From Acetobacterium malicum subsp. dehalogenans DSM 11527 (GTDB taxonomy: Bacteria; Bacillota; Clostridia; Eubacteriales; Eubacteriaceae), in assembly GCF_000472665.1 (NCBI RefSeq), contig NZ_AXAC01000006.1, positions 479-64,478 of the forward strand: a DNA stretch of 64,000 bases, given 5' to 3'. Positions 51,008 through 64,000 of the stretch are shown piece by piece. The translations under genes and the position numbers were made by a program. Within the stretch, counting starts at the first letter, position 1, and every line of letters starts with the position of its first letter. Under the pieces are notes generated by a model. That model did no database searches. It was not told the DNA's origin and saw nothing but the letters and a program-made list of their open reading frames with translations.

Positions 51008-53155
51008 TCAGACCAGTTGTCTTTTGGCGTATTTATAAAAATAAGCTTCTTTTTTCATCAGTTCATCATAGGTACCAGCTTCAACGATGGTACCCTTTTC
51101 CAGTACCAGAATCCGGTCACAATCCATGATCGTACTGAGCCGATGAGCAATGACAATCCGAGTGGCATCAAGATTTTTCATACTTTCCGAGACAGTCTTC
51201 TGGGACCGGTTGTCCAGGGCGCTGGTGGCCTCATCAAAAAAGATGATCGCTGGATTGGCAGCAATGGCTCTGGCAATTAGCAACTTTTGCCGCTGCCCCC
51301 CCGACAGGGTTCCGGCTCCCTCTGCCACCATGGTTTTAAGACCCATCGGCATTTCCCGGATTTCTTCATCCATGCCCACCTTTTTAAGCAGTTCCCAGAC
51401 ATCTTCTTCGGTCAGTTCTTTTTTTGAGCCGGCGATATTGGATAAAATATCCCCGGGGATCAGTTGACTATCCTGAAGCACCACTCCCATTTGCTTTCTG
51501 ATTTCCCGGATATCGACACTTTCCAGATCAAATCCGCCGCAGTAAATCGTGCCACTGGTCGGTTTTTCAAAACCCAGCAACAAGCGTAACAGGGTTGATT
51601 TGCCGCTGCCGGAGGCCCCCACAATGGCCACATATTCGCCATGTTTGATATTGATAAAAATATTATCCAGAATCGTTGCACCGCCCTCGTAATAGGAAAA
51701 GTACAGGTGCCTTATTTCGATATCCCCCTGAATTTTTCCCGGCGTCGTTTTAAAACTATCTACTTCCGGAATACCGTCAATGATCGGTTTAGTATTTTCA
51801 TACTGCGGCACTACGCTGTTAATCGAAATCAAGGTTTGTACCAGTCCCAGCAACGAGGATATAAAGATAACAAAGGCTGAATTGATGGCCACAAAGCCCC
51901 CGGAAGAAATGCTGTTGACACTCACATAATAATAGATCACACACATTGACAGGGTCGGCAGGGCAATGGTCGTTAACCGCAACAGCGCCATCAACTGTCC
52001 TCTTTTATACTCCACCTTTCGCTGTTTGGCATACTCCCGGACCCATTTCAAATAGGAGCGACTTTCCGCCCCGGCCACCCGCAGCCGCGAAACTGAGGTG
52101 ATCAGCTCAAACACCATCCCCGAAATATCATTGGACATTTCCAGCGAGGTTCGCTGACATTTCATTTGCATTTTTCCGATCACCAGGGTGACTGCCACAC
52201 TGATGGCCGTTAAAGCCATGGCCAGGAAGCCAATGGTGGTGTTGATGGTAAAGATATAAAATCCATTGATAATTGAAAAAGAGCTGGTGATAATCATCGT
52301 AATGACATTAACTGATAGTATCTTCTGGATCATTGCAAAGCCGGTGGCCCGCATGGCCAGAGCTCCGGATGAATACTGCTTGAAAAATGAAGCCGGTAGT
52401 GATAACAGTTTATCCAGCAGCGAATTCTGCAATATCGACAATTTCCCTTGGATGCGGAGTACACAGATATTTTGAACCATGGTAAACAGGCCCCGGCTGA
52501 TGGCCACAGCCACCAGAATAAATCCCACCACCAGAATCGTCACTGATTGATTTTGGGGAATCCAGACGTTGAAGGTCTCTTGCATGGCCATTGCCGGCAG
52601 CAGCGATAACAGGGCCGTCACTACCGCCAGCACCAGGGTCCAGACCAGATCCCGACGGCGGAACAGTTTTAAGCCCAATTTTATCATATCTAAAAAAGAT
52701 ACTGGTTCTTTGGGCAAGGGTGGGTAAAAAACATAAGCCCGGTCGAATTCCGACTGGCCATCCACTTCCTGAGATGTCCCATCAGCACGAAAGCACCGAT
52801 AGCGGGTTGGTGTTTTAGGGATCAGGGCGACTGGCTCTCCCGTCATGGTAAAGGCCAGCATCGGGCCATTGTCGCTGTGATACCACTCCGCTTTCAAGTC
52901 CACCTGGCGAATCCGAAATCCCGATTCATCGGCGATCATTTTAAATTGATCACCGCCGCCACTTAGCTTACGCAGGGGCGGAATTTTCACAACAATTCCC
53001 ATTGCTTCGGCGACCTTGATCACCGCCGCGATCAGCGGGTTATCATCCTGGGATGCCGCCGATTTTTTGGGGGATAAAACGCTGTCAAAGGCTTTTTTGG
53101 CGCTGTTATCGTATTTTTTATTGATCTGTCGGATCTCTTCTAGTTTTTTTGCCAT
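51008..53155 (-). CDS. NHLM-type ABC transporter, permease/ATPase without peptidase
   Basis: 715 residues. The N-terminal 150 residues form a non-peptidase domain (GDQFKMIADESGFRIRQVDLKAEWYHSDNG; FTMTGEPVALIPKTPTRYRCF) found in the second ABC protein of NHLM bacteriocin export systems. Six membrane helices (about 165-430) precede the ATPase domain with Walker A GASGSGKSTLL, signature LSGGQRQKLL and Walker B AIIFFDEATSALD. It starts three bases after the peptidase transporter gene's stop, using GAGGGATAAGAG as ribosome site. Probably works as a heterodimer or second step with that protein. Confidence 0.9.
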   Translation of the reverse strand: MAKKLEEIRQINKKYDNSAKKAFDSVLSPKKSAASQDDNPLIAAVIKVAEAMGIVVKIPPLRKLSGGGDQFKMIADESGFRIRQVDLKAEWYHSDNGPMLAFTMTGEPVALIPKTPTRYRCFRADGTSQEVDGQSEFDRAYVFYPPLPKEPVSFLDMIKLGLKLFRRRDLVWTLVLAVVTALLSLLPAMAMQETFNVWIPQNQSVTILVVGFILVAVAISRGLFTMVQNICVLRIQGKLSILQNSLLDKLLSLPASFFKQYSSGALAMRATGFAMIQKILSVNVITMIITSSFSIINGFYIFTINTTIGFLAMALTAISVAVTLVIGKMQMKCQRTSLEMSNDISGMVFELITSVSRLRVAGAESRSYLKWVREYAKQRKVEYKRGQLMALLRLTTIALPTLSMCVIYYYVSVNSISSGGFVAINSAFVIFISSLLGLVQTLISINSVVPQYENTKPIIDGIPEVDSFKTTPGKIQGDIEIRHLYFSYYEGGATILDNIFINIKHGEYVAIVGASGSGKSTLLRLLLGFEKPTSGTIYCGGFDLESVDIREIRKQMGVVLQDSQLIPGDILSNIAGSKKELTEEDVWELLKKVGMDEEIREMPMGLKTMVAEGAGTLSGGQRQKLLIARAIAANPAIIFFDEATSALDNRSQKTVSESMKNLDATRIVIAHRLSTIMDCDRILVLEKGTIVEAGTYDELMKKEAYFYKYAKRQLV

Positions 53156-53158
53156 CTC

Positions 53159-55360
53159 TTATCCCTCAGTTCTGATCAGACTTGCATACTCACCGCCCAA
53201 AGCCATCAATTCTTCATGGGTGCCGCGCTCTTTGACAACCCCGCAGCTCAGTACGATGATCTCATCACAATCGCGAATCGTTGATAACCGGTGGGCCACC
53301 AGAATGGTGCTGATGCCGCGGCGCCGGATGTTTTCACTGACCTCGGCCTCGGTGGCCGTATCCAGCGCACTGGTAGCCTCATCCATCACCAGGATCCGGG
53401 GATTTTTACATAAGGCCCGGGCGATTTCCAGTCGCTGTCGCTGCCCGCCGCTTAAGTTTTTTCCGCCTTCGCTTAAAATATGGTCAAAGGCGTTGGGCAA
53501 AGCCAGAATATCTTCATAGATACAGGCGTCTTTGGTGGCCTGGATGACATCCTCGACCGCAATGGTTTCATCCCACATGGTAATGTTGTCCAGCACCGAG
53601 GCCGAATACATCACGATTTCCTGATCGACCGAGCTCATCGTGTTGACCCGCAGCTCGGCCGGAATCGCTTTAATATCAATGCCATCAATGCGTATTTCAC
53701 CGCTCCAGGGCTGGTAAAGGGTGGTAATCATTTTGGCAATCGTCGATTTGCCGCTTCCCGATGAACCGACCAGGGCGATTGAACCACCAGCCCGGAGGGT
53801 CAGGTTCAAGCCCTGAATAATCGGGTCTGAGAGTCGGTTATATCCAAAGGTCAGATCCCGGATCTCAATCTCGCCTTCCAATTGATCACAGTCAAATCCA
53901 TCCAATGAAATTTTTTCTGACTCCAGGGCGATATCTTCCGGATATTTTTCGACATCATCGAGACGCGCAATATCGGCGATCATCCCCTGTAAGGCGGCAC
54001 TGGTGCTAACCAGCTCACTCATTGGCTGGGTAAAGCCGGTCATCAGCGTATTAAAGGCCACAAAGGTCCCAATGGTCATGGTTCCCATTAATACATACTC
54101 ACTACCGATAGTAAAGATCAGAGCCGTTAAGATCGCCGTCAGCAGAGTCGGCAGCACCGAAATAACGGCTTCCATCCGCCCCATCCGCTGTTCCACTGCC
54201 AGCGTTTCGGCACTGAGTCCGGCGATGCGGGTAAAGAAATTGTCTTCCTCACCAATTGACTTAATGGTTTCGATGGATTTCAGATTGACCATGATCCAGC
54301 CAATCGATTTCCCCTGATACTGCAGCAGCACCCGGTTGTTGTCAGCATTCTTTTTGGCTGTGTATTGCAGCAGAAAGATGTTGATCCCGGTGATGACGAT
54401 GCCAATCAGGGTCAAAATGACATTATATTGAAAAAGCAGAATCAGGTATAAAAAAGCTGTGACCAGATTAACCAGAATACGGGCCAGATTAGAAGACAAC
54501 GCGGTTGCCACGGTATTGATGCTTTGCATCCGGCTGTTGATATCACCGGATTGGCGCTGATTAAAAAACTCCACCGGCAACCGCAGGACATGACGAAGAT
54601 AGGTGCCGGCACTGTCGATGGCAATATAGTTCTCCATCCGCACCAGGGCGTTCTCCTTCAGCCAGTTGAGAATGGCCTGGAGTACCACGGTGTTTAGCAG
54701 AATAAAAACAAAAATCAAAATATCAAATTTTTCGGTATTATTGAGGTAATAATCGACAAATATTTTGGCGTAATTGGCAATAATCAAACCCGGAATAACC
54801 AGCAGCACCCCCAGCACCAGGGCATAGAGTAAGGGGGAAATCCCGGTTTGGGATAGCCGTTTAAACAGCGCCTTCCAGACATCGGGCTTTTCCCCGGCCT
54901 TTTTAAACTCCGGTCCCGGTCGGGACTCAATCACCACCCCGGTAAACATTTGTCCCAGTTCTTCCGTAGTGATTACCCGTTGTCCCGAAGCCGGATCGCA
55001 CAAATAAACCTTGTCGTTTTTAAACCCTTCCAGGACGACAAAATGGCTGAAATCCCAGTGAATAATCACCGGCATCGTCATTTCTTTTAACTTATCTACG
55101 GTACAGACAAAGCCCTGGGACTCGAGGCCGTAAAGTCGGGCTGTTCTGGCAATATTTCCGGCTTTTACCCCATCCCGGGAGACCCCGCAATCAATCCGGA
55201 GCGTCTCCAGGGTTTCGTAGCGCCCATAATAGGCCAGAATCATCGAAAGCGATGCTACCCCGCACTCTACTGCTTCCATTTGCAGCACTACCGGTACCTT
55301 AGCTATTTTAGGCAGTTTTCCGTGCTCATCCCGACTTTTCTCGGTTTCTGAATTCGTCAT
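53159..55360 (-). CDS. NHLM-type peptidase-containing ABC exporter (C39 peptidase)
   Basis: 733 residues. The C39 peptidase domain (1-135) has the catalytic set C33 (VECGVASL), H106 (HWDFSHFVVLEG) and D122 (LCDPASGQR). It would cut the precursor after its Gly-Gly, then six helices (about 165-440) and the ATPase domain (Walker A GSSGSGKSTIAK, signature LSGGQRQRLE, Walker B ILVMDEATSALD) drive export. Intact catalytic residues and the GG site in the precursor at 60880 fit each other. AAAGGCGG precedes the ATG. Confidence 0.93.
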   Translation of the reverse strand: MTNSETEKSRDEHGKLPKIAKVPVVLQMEAVECGVASLSMILAYYGRYETLETLRIDCGVSRDGVKAGNIARTARLYGLESQGFVCTVDKLKEMTMPVIIHWDFSHFVVLEGFKNDKVYLCDPASGQRVITTEELGQMFTGVVIESRPGPEFKKAGEKPDVWKALFKRLSQTGISPLLYALVLGVLLVIPGLIIANYAKIFVDYYLNNTEKFDILIFVFILLNTVVLQAILNWLKENALVRMENYIAIDSAGTYLRHVLRLPVEFFNQRQSGDINSRMQSINTVATALSSNLARILVNLVTAFLYLILLFQYNVILTLIGIVITGINIFLLQYTAKKNADNNRVLLQYQGKSIGWIMVNLKSIETIKSIGEEDNFFTRIAGLSAETLAVEQRMGRMEAVISVLPTLLTAILTALIFTIGSEYVLMGTMTIGTFVAFNTLMTGFTQPMSELVSTSAALQGMIADIARLDDVEKYPEDIALESEKISLDGFDCDQLEGEIEIRDLTFGYNRLSDPIIQGLNLTLRAGGSIALVGSSGSGKSTIAKMITTLYQPWSGEIRIDGIDIKAIPAELRVNTMSSVDQEIVMYSASVLDNITMWDETIAVEDVIQATKDACIYEDILALPNAFDHILSEGGKNLSGGQRQRLEIARALCKNPRILVMDEATSALDTATEAEVSENIRRRGISTILVAHRLSTIRDCDEIIVLSCGVVKERGTHEELMALGGEYASLIRTEG

Positions 55361-55377: not shown

Positions 55378-56202
55378 CTAAGAGATAATCAAATTAATGA
55401 GATATAACTGATCGGTGAAAATCGTCGCGCTGGCGGAGGTCCCAGCGGTGATTTCACCGCTGAAACCATTGTTTTCTTTGGTCCAGATATAATTCCCCTG
55501 ATCATCTACCTTGGGATCAATAATAATCTGCATTTCAACGGGACTCTCTTGCTCCTGAGATAAACCACTGAGCTGAACACTGCGAACAATCCCTCTTAAA
55601 TATCCATACTCATCGGTGGCGGCCGATTCCACCGCTACAAATGCCCGGTCTCCCTGCTTAACATTAATCGCCTGTTCATAGCTGGAATAAGCCAGCACCA
55701 CCACTGTGGTTTCTTCGTTCTCCCGTTTGACAATTTGACACAAGGTGCTGTTCTTAGGCAAGAATGCGCCGTCCTGAAAACTCAGGTCTGCCACCACACC
55801 GCTTTCCATCGCGACAATCATCGTTTGTCGTTTAACCAGGCTTTTCTCCTGATCAGTTAAAACGGCCCCACTGGTGATCTGAGCTGCGGTCCCCTCGGTG
55901 GTCAGTACACCCAGCAGATCACCCCGCTTGACATAATCGCCATTGGAGACACTGAGCTGGGATAAGATCCCTTCATTTTCAACCACCACTTGGGCGGTTC
56001 CTTCGCCATAGGATACCACCGCATCCATGGTGGTGGTGATGTTAATGGGGACGGTAATCGAATAAATGATCACACCGACTAAAAAAATGATAATCCCCAG
56101 CAATATCAGCAGATTCCCCGGACCGATGACCGTCATCAGGGCTGCATGCTCACTTTTTTTGGTGCTTTTATCCTCTTTATTTTTAAAAATGGATTTACTC
56201 AC
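55378..56202 (-). CDS. HlyD-like secretion adaptor (NHLM type)
   Basis: 274 residues starting at GTG (GGGAGGACAGG upstream), overlapping the solute-binding gene by eight bases. One membrane helix (about 33-55) is followed by an extracytoplasmic biotinyl/lipoyl-like hairpin domain (VVSYGEGTAQVVVENEGILSQLSVSNGDYVKRGDLLGVL) and a C-terminal beta domain (AVESAATDEYGYLRGIV). It should bridge the ABC exporters to the outside of the single membrane. Order and size match the secretion protein of NHLM systems. Confidence 0.88.
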   Translation of the reverse strand: MSKSIFKNKEDKSTKKSEHAALMTVIGPGNLLILLGIIIFLVGVIIYSITVPINITTTMDAVVSYGEGTAQVVVENEGILSQLSVSNGDYVKRGDLLGVLTTEGTAAQITSGAVLTDQEKSLVKRQTMIVAMESGVVADLSFQDGAFLPKNSTLCQIVKRENEETTVVVLAYSSYEQAINVKQGDRAFVAVESAATDEYGYLRGIVRSVQLSGLSQEQESPVEMQIIIDPKVDDQGNYIWTKENNGFSGEITAGTSASATIFTDQLYLINLIIS

Positions 56203-57337
56203 TACCCTGTCCTCCCCCCGTCAAATTGTCCTTGGGCACCAATTGATCATTGACATAGATCTTCTGGAACACCGGAATCCCGTTGATCAGCCGTTTATCA
56301 AAGCTTAAACTGCCATAGACTGTATCAATACTGTTCTCTTCCAGCACCTTTTTAAGGTCCGCTACGTCCAGACTCTGGGCCTGGTTCGCCGCGGCTGCCG
56401 CCAGGTGCATATTCATGTAGGCTTGAGCCGCCGGTAAATCCGGATTCTTCCCATAGGCCTGTTGATAAGCCTGAATGAATGCCGCTTCGGGACCCGCCGT
56501 GGCGGTATTGTTAAAATAACTGGTGACCTGGGTCAGGTTTTTCATGCTCTGGGGAATTATATAGGGCTGAATCTCAATGTCATAGCTGGCAAAAATTGGC
56601 CGGGTATTACCGGTTTTTTCCAGATACCCATAAAGCGCGGTGATATCCTCGCCGACACAGGCGGTAACGATGGCCTGGGCGCCCAGACTGTCCCATTTTT
56701 TTAGATAATAACGGAAATAATCCAGATTCGGTAGATAAGACACGGCATCAACAATTTCAATGCCGGCTTCACCCGCGTGTTCTTCAACTTTTTGCATATA
56801 ATCTTTGCCATAGGTATTGCCGGCGGTATGAACAACGGCAATCCGGCGGATACCCTGAGCGGCCATACTATTGACCATTTCACTGGCCATCGCATCATCC
56901 GATGGTGCGCAGAGATAGGCGCCCTCATTTTCAGCCAGATTTAGTTTCGAGCTGGCGATAATCGGTGCGAACAGCAGCTTATTATTCTGGTTATAGATGC
57001 TCCCCACCTTCAGCACATCATCGGTGCTCCGATGTCCGATAACAATCGGAAAACCTCGATTTTCGCCAATCCGGGTGGCTACTTCCACGGCGGTATTGGT
57101 GTTATTACCATCATCATTGTAATTGATTTCAATGGTTTGATTGAGGATCCCGCCCTGCTCATTGATCTCCTTAGCGGCCAGTTCGATGCCATTTTTAAAG
57201 GACTCACTGTACTCCTGCGAGAATGGATAAACCACATCCACCGACAGGGTGTTTATTTTGGCAGTTTCTGCTGTGCAGCCAAAGCAAAACACCAGGCCAA
57301 TCAATAAGATCGATAAGATCATAAGGTGTTTTTTCAT
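56195..57337 (-). CDS. Type I solute-binding lipoprotein inside the RiPP operon
   Basis: 380 residues; AAGGAGA before the ATG. Lipobox VFCFGC (Cys about 21) and a two-lobed type I periplasmic-binding fold of the branched-chain amino acid/amide class (PFSQEYSESFKNGIELAAKEINEQGG; GHRSTDDVLKVGSIYNQNNKLLFAPI; TAGNTYGKDYMQKVEEHAGEAGIEIVDAVSYLPNLDYF). No import permease is nearby; its only partners are the exporter and the maturases. It might bind the mature peptide, an immunity target or an inducing ligand. Co-transcribed, 32 bases after the 57370 maturase. Confidence 0.88.
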   Translation of the reverse strand: MKKHLMILSILLIGLVFCFGCTAETAKINTLSVDVVYPFSQEYSESFKNGIELAAKEINEQGGILNQTIEINYNDDGNNTNTAVEVATRIGENRGFPIVIGHRSTDDVLKVGSIYNQNNKLLFAPIIASSKLNLAENEGAYLCAPSDDAMASEMVNSMAAQGIRRIAVVHTAGNTYGKDYMQKVEEHAGEAGIEIVDAVSYLPNLDYFRYYLKKWDSLGAQAIVTACVGEDITALYGYLEKTGNTRPIFASYDIEIQPYIIPQSMKNLTQVTSYFNNTATAGPEAAFIQAYQQAYGKNPDLPAAQAYMNMHLAAAAANQAQSLDVADLKKVLEENSIDTVYGSLSFDKRLINGIPVFQKIYVNDQLVPKDNLTGGGQGSE

Positions 57338-60879: not shown

Positions 60880-61152
60880 TTAAGCTCTAGCTGTTTGTGT
60901 TGCTGTAAAGGCGTAATCTACGCCAACAATACTTAAACCGCCAGCAGCCTGATCCAATTGATCATCACTGATTGGTTGTTTTGCCTGTGCTTCTTTAAAA
61001 GCAGCATCAAATTCAGCTGCAGTACAGCTGTAACCTAATTTTGCAACAACTGCATCAAATTCTGCTTCAGTTTTAGCATCATCAAGTTGTTTTGCCAATG
61101 CCTCATCAGTTAATACTTTTGCGGCTAATGCTTTTGCACCATCAATACTCAT
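60880..61152 (-). CDS. RiPP precursor peptide with Nif11-like leader
   Basis: 90 residues from MSIDGAKA; AAAGGAGG is ideally placed before this ATG, and an upstream in-frame start lies within it. Residues 1-72 match the Nif11-like leader family (MSIDGAKALAAKVLTDEAL; VAKLGYSCTAAEFDAAF; ISDDQLDQAAGG). The GG at 71-72 is the cleavage site for the C39 exporter. The core is residues 73-90, LSIVGVDYAFTATQTARA: 18 residues, no Cys, one Ser, three Thr, one Tyr and one Asp. With no Cys or lanthionine enzyme, modification by radical chemistry is the expectation. It lies between two maturase genes in the operon. Confidence 0.9.
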   Translation of the reverse strand: MSIDGAKALAAKVLTDEALAKQLDDAKTEAEFDAVVAKLGYSCTAAEFDAAFKEAQAKQPISDDQLDQAAGGLSIVGVDYAFTATQTARA

Positions 61153-61180
61153 TTTCTTCCTCCTTTCCAAACGATTTTGG

Positions 61181-62908: not shown

Positions 62909-64000
62909 CTAGAACGGAACAACAAGAAGCCAGTATTTTTTATCAAAAACTTTCAGCGTCGCAATGATCCGCTCCATTAATTCATTGGAACTTTCGTTAA
63001 ATGGTTTTCCGAATCGCTCGTATAGGATGTCAGTAATGGCAGCGATGGTGCTTTTGCCGGTGCAGTATTTCATGATTTCGTATTCAAAGGGTGACAGTGC
63101 CTCGCCCCATAACAGCGGATAACCCTGGGAAAAATCGACATCCCGCCACATTTCAATCATCCGCTGGGGCCGCCAGTTGGGCAGTTCGGCCGGATTCACA
63201 TCGATAACCCGACTGGCGGATTCCCGGGCCAGCATGGTGTAATAGGCGGTCAAGGTCGGGCGATGATGAGAAATAATATTAATCCAGTATTTGGGCCCGT
63301 TGGAGGCCATCGATGTTTGGTAGCATCTTAAAATATCTTCGTGACCCAATTCCCCGTCGTTTAACATGATTTTTACCTCATCCACAAAACTCTGGAGATA
63401 TTCCTGATAGGCCCCCATGATCTCCCGGCGATCCATGGTTTCACTATCCATAATCGGATAGTCGGAAATACTGCCGAGACCCTGCTTGTCGTAAATCGTC
63501 AGCCCATATTTTTCGGGGTGCAGGCCAATATCGGTCATCGGATAAGGCATCACAATGCTGGGGGCAATTTCCATCATTCCCGGGCCCAACCGCAGCAGCT
63601 TGGCCCCAAAAGCCTTATTCTTTTCAATATGTTCCCGATTTTCAAAGGGACCACCCACCAGCAGCGCGCCAAAGACCTGCTGAACCCCGGCATCATAGGC
63701 CGCTTTCACGACGATTTCCACCATTTCCGGAGAAATATTTTTGCGGTAAATTTTAAGCATCTCCTTATCGACGGTTTCAATGCCGATTTGAAGCCGGTTA
63801 AGGCCGGCATCCACCATCGCCTGCAATACTTCTGGTCGGCGGCTTAAGGACACCACATCGGCCTCACAATAGAACTGAAAGGGCTTGACAGCCTGAAGGG
63901 CTTTAGCCTCCCGGCAAAACTGATCCAGCCATTTAGGATCCGTAACCAGGGTGTCGTCACAAAACTTAAAATAATTGAGCTCCGGATATTTAAGCAGAAA
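62909..64000 (-). CDS. B12-binding-type radical SAM RiPP maturase 4 (5' part outside window)
   Basis: The frame is open to the last base of the window, so at least 48 residues precede the first internal start at 63856; these include YFKFCDDTLVTDPKW and FQFYCEADVVSLS, which are middle-of-barrel motifs. Visible are LQIGIETVDKEMLKIYRKN, LLVGGPFENREH, PSIVMPYPMTDIG, IEMWRDVDFSQGYP and SPFEYEIMKYCTGKSTIAAI. The cluster-binding Cys motif and the B12 domain are beyond the window. It is 15 bases upstream of maturase 3 and clearly co-transcribed. Confidence 0.88.
   Translation of the reverse strand, partial: FLLKYPELNYFKFCDDTLVTDPKWLDQFCREAKALQAVKPFQFYCEADVVSLSRRPEVLQAMVDAGLNRLQIGIETVDKEMLKIYRKNISPEMVEIVVKAAYDAGVQQVFGALLVGGPFENREHIEKNKAFGAKLLRLGPGMMEIAPSIVMPYPMTDIGLHPEKYGLTIYDKQGLGSISDYPIMDSETMDRREIMGAYQEYLQSFVDEVKIMLNDGELGHEDILRCYQTSMASNGPKYWINIISHHRPTLTAYYTMLARESASRVIDVNPAELPNWRPQRMIEMWRDVDFSQGYPLLWGEALSPFEYEIMKYCTGKSTIAAITDILYERFGKPFNESSNELMERIIATLKVFDKKYWLLVVPF

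Follow-up and report, generated by a model that had tools for sequence, protein, structure and literature searches.

In the window, by which we mean the whole stretch of 64,000 nucleotides analysed from Acetobacterium malicum subsp. dehalogenans DSM 11527, a small peptide precursor is encoded between genes for five B12-rSAM modules. A fused pair (A1 and A2) and module B lie on one side of the precursor gene and modules C and D on the other, followed by a binding lipoprotein and the components of an exporter (Table 1).

Table 1. Features of the precursor cluster, with positions in the window.
Feature	Position	Strand	Evidence or remark
NHLM ABC2 permease/ATPase	51008..53155	-	TIGR03797, 769.7 bits (cut-off 709.4)
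NHLM ABC1 (C39 peptidase/permease/ATPase)	53159..55360	-	TIGR03796, 901.6 bits (cut-off 853.3); PF03412, 8.3e-33
HlyD-type adaptor of exporter	55378..56202	-	PF13437
Lipoprotein-like substrate-binding protein (Peripla_BP_6)	56195..57337	-	Profile match
B12-rSAM D, 567 aa	57370..59073	-	PF04055, 1.1e-16; PF02310, 7.3e-05, under Pfam cut-off
B12-rSAM C, ~582 aa	59049..60797	-	PF04055 and PF02310; CysS match, 1.4e-16
Nif11-leader RiPP precursor, 90 aa	60880..61152	-	Translation; PF07862, 3.9e-11; TIGR03798 over cut-off
Core residues 11-18, TATQTARA, variable tail	60883..60906	-	Five of eight positions vary
Core residues 1-10, LSIVGVDYAF	60907..60936	-	Identical in all 21 orthologues
Gly71-Gly72, predicted C39 cleavage site	60937..60942	-	Sequence; invariant in 15 aligned homologues
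Shine-Dalgarno AAAGGAGG of precursor	61159..61166	-	Sequence, 5' of the start codon
B12-rSAM B, 570 aa	61181..62893	-	PF04055 and PF02310; AF2 model; Foldseek
Fused double B12-rSAM (A1, A2), C-terminal part	62909..64000	-	1200 aa whole; runs past the window end to ~66511 (L038:3387-6989)

An earlier, sequence-only reading had given the coordinates of the precursor exactly; the gene reads on the minus strand, since the plus-strand frame of the same interval is interrupted by stops. Translation from ATG61152 yields a peptide that begins with MSIDGAKALAAKVL and passes through DQLDQAAGG into LSIVGVDYAFTATQTARA. The Nif11-like leader proposed at that time is recognised by both PF07862 (43.5 bits against a curated cut-off of 23.8) and TIGR03798 (leader_Nif11; 45.6 bits against 32.3). 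A proteusin-type nitrile-hydratase-like (NHLP) leader was not detected, TIGR03798 being in that comparison the sole profile matching the precursor leader. The leader ends in AAGG (residues 69-72), and the 18 residues that follow it form the core, which, as had also been proposed, is free of Cys. Cys residues for the thioether rings of lanthipeptides or sactipeptides are likewise absent from the cores of the orthologues, and the single Cys of the precursor, C43, lies in the leader and is replaced by Val or Ala in some orthologues. The predicted cleavage after Gly72 fits all 15 aligned homologues, but not a distant relative from a phylum sample of 399 genomes (G394), which has GVG in place of GG. 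We regard it as close to certain that this peptide is a RiPP precursor and that its core begins at this point.

The same reading had suggested that homologues be collected to see which core residues are conserved, and had named VGVDY and TATQT as the natural targets of modification. Among 21 orthologues with 18 distinct leaders, none of the first ten core positions varies, as compared with 34 of the 72 leader positions (Fisher P=0.003, which is a descriptive value because the 21 sequences share history). The pS values of core and leader are equal (0.43), whereas pN amounts to 0.026 in the core and 0.077 in the leader, so that amino-acid changes are about three times rarer in the core; pN/pS is 0.060 for core residues 1-16 and 0.178 for the leader. 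The sameness of the core therefore reflects more than recent descent, and we judge from these sequences that its near-identity in Acetobacterium and Sporomusa malonica is not due to chance. The second half of the core behaves differently. Within TATQT the orthologues show T/V, A/G/M, T/V and Q/E/K/P, and only one of the eight residues 11-18 is identical in G394. For G394 taken alone, the retention of core residues 1-10 relative to the leader has a P-value of 0.095. The orthologues, the paralogues with a YPF core and G394 share the pattern [LIT][ST][IMLF][VI]G[VIF]DY[AP]F, in which G5, D7, Y8 and F10 are the only constant residues. Because residues 11-18 drift, the target of modification is likely to be VGVDYAF and not TATQT. 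Thus, one of the two stretches named earlier, VGVDY, lies within the invariant LSIVGVDYAF, whereas TATQT, being partly variable and poorly matched in G394, is an unpromising candidate for a common target.

All five modules contain a radical SAM domain and a CxxxCxxC motif, in the fused protein at residues 197 and 807, one per unit, where NCBIfam matches were also obtained. Modules B, C and D in addition match the B12-binding domain, and the combination of B12-binding and radical SAM domains, CxxxCxxC and fold that defines class-1 cobalamin-dependent radical SAM enzymes is present, with the B12-binding match of D lying under the Pfam cut-off. An AlphaFold2 model of module B (pLDDT 92) was matched by Foldseek to AprD4, MgmA, TsrM, CysS, OxsB and TokK. 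MgmA, TsrM, CysS and TokK are methylases; OxsB is not. In a maximum-likelihood tree, B, C, D and A2 each pair one-to-one with a G394 orthologue (bootstrap 99-100), and the position of the other two G394 genes, near A1 and D, is not firm. Because of this pairing, the common ancestor would already have had at least four, and probably five, distinct enzymes. The A1-A2 fusion is kept in Acetobacterium and Sporomusa, but the units are separate genes in G394, for which either a later fusion or a split in the line leading to G394 may account. It appears very unlikely that this core is the substrate of a mere subset of the modules, the others serving a different substrate or being vestigial duplicates. 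Such a division of labour would fit the unsure placement of the A1 type in the tree, the extra copy (H_1/H_4) in G394, and relatives in which the same enzymes accompany two or three different precursors. However, B, C, D and A2 have been retained one-to-one over a large distance, CxxxCxxC is intact in the modules of the window, and the genome itself has a single precursor. We consider it highly likely that most modules act on this core.

As to the chemistry, modification sites had been said to be necessarily carbon centres of Val, Ile, Leu, Ala, Thr, Tyr or Phe. Modification at carbon is indeed expected of B12-rSAM maturases, but the wording was too strong: the core also contains Ser, Gly, Asp, Gln and Arg, and enzymes of this kind also form cross-links and carry out ring chemistry. 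All modules score under the curated cut-offs of the named families among the NCBIfam/TIGRFAM profiles, C-methyltransferases included. For TIGR03975, which covers C-methyltransferases of RiPP maturation (cut-off 281.85), the best single module scores 92.4 bits and the fused pair sums to 136.2; for the ApyD family NF050148 (cut-off 750) a single module scores at most ~118 bits and the fused pair sums to 198.7. The best family neighbours of the modules include HpnJ, BchE and AprD4, all of which are non-methylating.

The residues expected beneath the cobalt are those corresponding to Trp76 in TokK and Asn186 in OxsB (PMC13331322). In our alignment, the former position is occupied by Asp, Glu or Asn and the latter by an invariant Asp, within a motif resembling CD[FY][DEN]N that is common to the modules, with Val replacing Cys in A2. 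Because of these residues, we predict a polar environment at the lower face of the cobalt, unlike in TokK and CysS. Precedents for C-methylation by B12-rSAMs are found in bottromycin and with PoyB/C (PMC11285071); ApyD makes beta-methyl-Tyr (PMC10635010), and PbsB cross-links aromatic side chains in a RiPP (PMC12257519). We think it likely that at least one C-methylation takes place, but less likely than not that all five changes are methylations. The main chemical rival is a cross-link: at least one module might introduce a C-C bond into VGVDYAF, such as one joining Tyr8 to Phe10, or oxidise this stretch in some other way, while the others methylate. PbsB acts on aromatic residues two apart, in FRF and with YTY tolerated (PMC12257519), Tyr8 and Phe10 are among the four constant residues, and both the predicted polar lower face and the non-methylating neighbours point in this direction. 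Nevertheless, PbsB depends on phenolic residues or on an earlier ortho-hydroxylation and the cluster shows no hydroxylase, Tyr never replaces Phe10 in the main cores, and the spacing is broken in the paralogous core GIDFYENSIW. Such a mixed chemistry seems rather unlikely to us.

The C-terminal ~90 residues of the B12-rSAMs have a beta3-alpha3 topology. When this domain was used for Foldseek, the RRE proteins TbiB1, lasso B1, PqqD and ThcOx crowded a weak list of matches (TM 0.44-0.61, E ~1), and the Pfam PqqD profile gave E 0.042 for one of six rSAM C-terminal domains, which is not significant. Given this fold and a list that is rich in RREs, though weak, leader binding by the C-terminal domains is plausible.

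The precursor is present in 17 of 19 Acetobacterium species and absent from 25 other genera sampled in the same order, and its cluster also occurs in Sporomusa malonica (as the only one among 12 genomes of the Sporomusa family) and in one Eubacteriales MAG. Profile searches in the order (67 genomes) and in the phylum sample (399 genomes) returned Acetobacterium and G394 only, and a search for B-type enzymes in 379 phylum genomes returned only the genome itself and G394. A DNA pattern for the core motif, applied to 83 and 351 genomes, gave no match besides G394 that lay within a Nif11 precursor or beside such enzymes, and a search of plasmids did not find the cluster. Sporomusa probably gained the cluster by transfer, and it therefore contributes less independent time than its taxonomy implies. 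The 12 loci compared, of the Acetobacterium type and Sporomusa, all show the gene order A-B-precursor(s)-C-D, and B12-rSAM genes stand on both sides of the precursor in every cluster seen.

That only one precursor copy exists, as the sequence-only reading had it, is true of the genome itself (4.05 Mb) and not of its relatives. A. wieringae-like strains and one further genome (G005) combine two or three precursors that have different cores with one enzyme set, their cores including TSMIGFDYPFVMTPIVP, ITLVGIDYPFVMTPIVP and LSIVGVDYAFVATETAMS. Likewise, alongside the same enzyme set, the cluster of G012 holds a second precursor (L055:11074-11325) in which GG precedes an almost unrelated core, ARGIDFYENSIW. 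G005 also carries another Nif11-like precursor (L045:1438-1710) with a Cys-containing end, GGGCTVYVGTIF, between two radical-SAM-like genes and a HlyD-like gene. Two more Nif11-like peptides of Sporomusa malonica (L049/L051), ending in GGAHGDNCGWNPMYHH and GGRYNNVCEEWYSGW, adjoin a radical-SAM-like gene whose product has a Cys-rich C-terminus.

Genes upstream of A differ among relatives, and the cluster can therefore be viewed as a discrete unit. Directly upstream in the present genome (L038:7201-15526) are a sigma-54 PAS regulator, an MttB-family methyltransferase, two BCCT-like transporters, and corrinoid-protein-like and methyltransferase-like genes. Since a GNAT or other gene adjoins the fused rSAM in several relatives, this region looks like an inserted methylamine/betaine demethylation island. 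We rejected the regulator and the MttB/BCCT genes as parts of the system, because relatives carry other genes at this place and the cluster begins at the fused rSAM.

On the export side, the C39 residues of ABC1 appear intact when read by eye (Cys in QMEAVECG, His in SHFVVLEG and Asp in CDPASG), and the adaptor scores 63.4 bits with TIGR03794 (NHLM HlyD component), under the cut-off of 156.2. The binding protein, a lipoprotein of the branched-chain-amino-acid type, lies without a permease inside the RiPP export operon and is a possible receptor for the exported peptide. It is found in those Acetobacterium clusters that extend this far, and was not found in the Sporomusa cluster. In G394, the precursor (leader 30 of 71 residues identical, end LTFVGIDYAFVGVKTSSG) sits among six separate B12-rSAM genes. 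A C39-bearing NHLM ABC1 was not found in that genome, the best match (332 bits) beginning after the peptidase part. As core and enzymes persist in G394 although GG is missing and no such exporter was found, export by the C39/NHLM route would not be tied to the modified core. A divergent, papain-like C1 peptidase gene (L053:6025-7239) adjoins the G394 cluster and is a candidate leader protease in a setting without GG and C39 exporter.

These observations bear on the main functional rival, namely that the peptide is a conserved signal or cofactor-like molecule and not a secreted antimicrobial, export being optional; either chemistry would be compatible with this. The situation in G394, the very strict conservation of the core within the genus, the lack of a recognisable immunity gene in the operon and the lipoprotein without its own permease would all suit such a role. 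On the other hand, the Acetobacterium and Sporomusa clusters do include a peptidase/exporter, and the copies with variant cores resemble diversification, and we regard this role as unlikely. A still wider proposal would define a RiPP class in which the ten-residue motif x[ST]xxGxDYxF, little changed from one bacterial class to another, is the target of at least five B12-rSAM units that are distinct and have been separate since ancient times, two being fused. One reaction or more would go beyond plain C-methylation, and the product would be signal- or cofactor-like rather than a fast-evolving bacteriocin; taken as a whole, we find this proposal quite unlikely.

Based on the precursor and its leader class, the families and folds of enzymes and transporter, the one-to-one orthology of the enzymes and the selection on the core, we infer, with modest confidence, a Nif11-leader RiPP pathway in which all five modules alter the core, mostly by C-methylation, before C39 cleavage and export. 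The PqqD-like (RRE-like) C-terminal domains of the five modules would bind the leader, and each module would make its own change at or near LSIVGVDYAF. Most changes would be C-methylations of unactivated carbons, as carried out by BotRMT1-3, PoyB/C and ApyD. The C39 domain of the NHLM transporter would then cut after GG72 and export the product, which the lipoprotein may bind outside.

With a target that is short, free of Cys and almost invariant, mass spectrometry should be able to locate the site of each enzyme, so that the rules of site choice by B12-rSAMs become directly testable. Moreover, Acetobacterium is anaerobic and culturable, and work on these hard-to-handle enzymes is therefore possible in the native host. 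In view of the strict conservation, one may also ask why the product of a 'bacteriocin' cluster should be frozen. In 2019, acetogens were compared by antiSMASH, and a Nif11/B12-rSAM 'bacteriocin' cluster of seven genes was listed for four species of Acetobacterium (PMC6925170). With its Nif11 leader, B12-rSAMs and HlyD, it is very probably the present cluster, but it was given as a gene list only, the core, fused module, orthology and distribution being unanalysed there; we found no open-licence paper that analyses the peptide, its enzymes or its product.

Among known systems, the biphenomycin-like pbs cluster resembles the present one in that the target of a B12-rSAM is a pair of aromatic residues, two apart, within a short conserved motif, but it has one B12-rSAM and depends on hydroxylation by an MNIO, a step lacking here (PMC12257519). 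Aminopyruvatide ApyD is a B12-rSAM acting on Tyr of a RiPP core and is the top NCBIfam match of module B (7.6e-31). However, module B reaches 107 bits against the cut-off of 750, and no P450 or MNIO is present here. Polytheonamide and other proteusins (PoyB, PoyC) are leader-guided RiPPs with B12-rSAM C-methylation of Val, Ile and other residues (PMC11285071), but they have a nitrile-hydratase leader, in contrast to the Nif11 leader and 18-residue core of the present system, whose modules score far under TIGR03975 and in which no epimerase or dehydratase was seen. In bottromycin, several B12-rSAMs (BotRMT1-3) likewise serve a single short and hydrophobic core, each with residues of its own (PMC11285071). 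Bottromycin differs by its C-terminal follower and three B12-rSAMs, as opposed to a Nif11 leader and five modules, and by the O-methyltransferase, which is lacking next to the core here. Five B12-rSAM modules for one 18-residue core thus exceed the numbers in the characterised RiPPs compared (bottromycin three, polytheonamide two).
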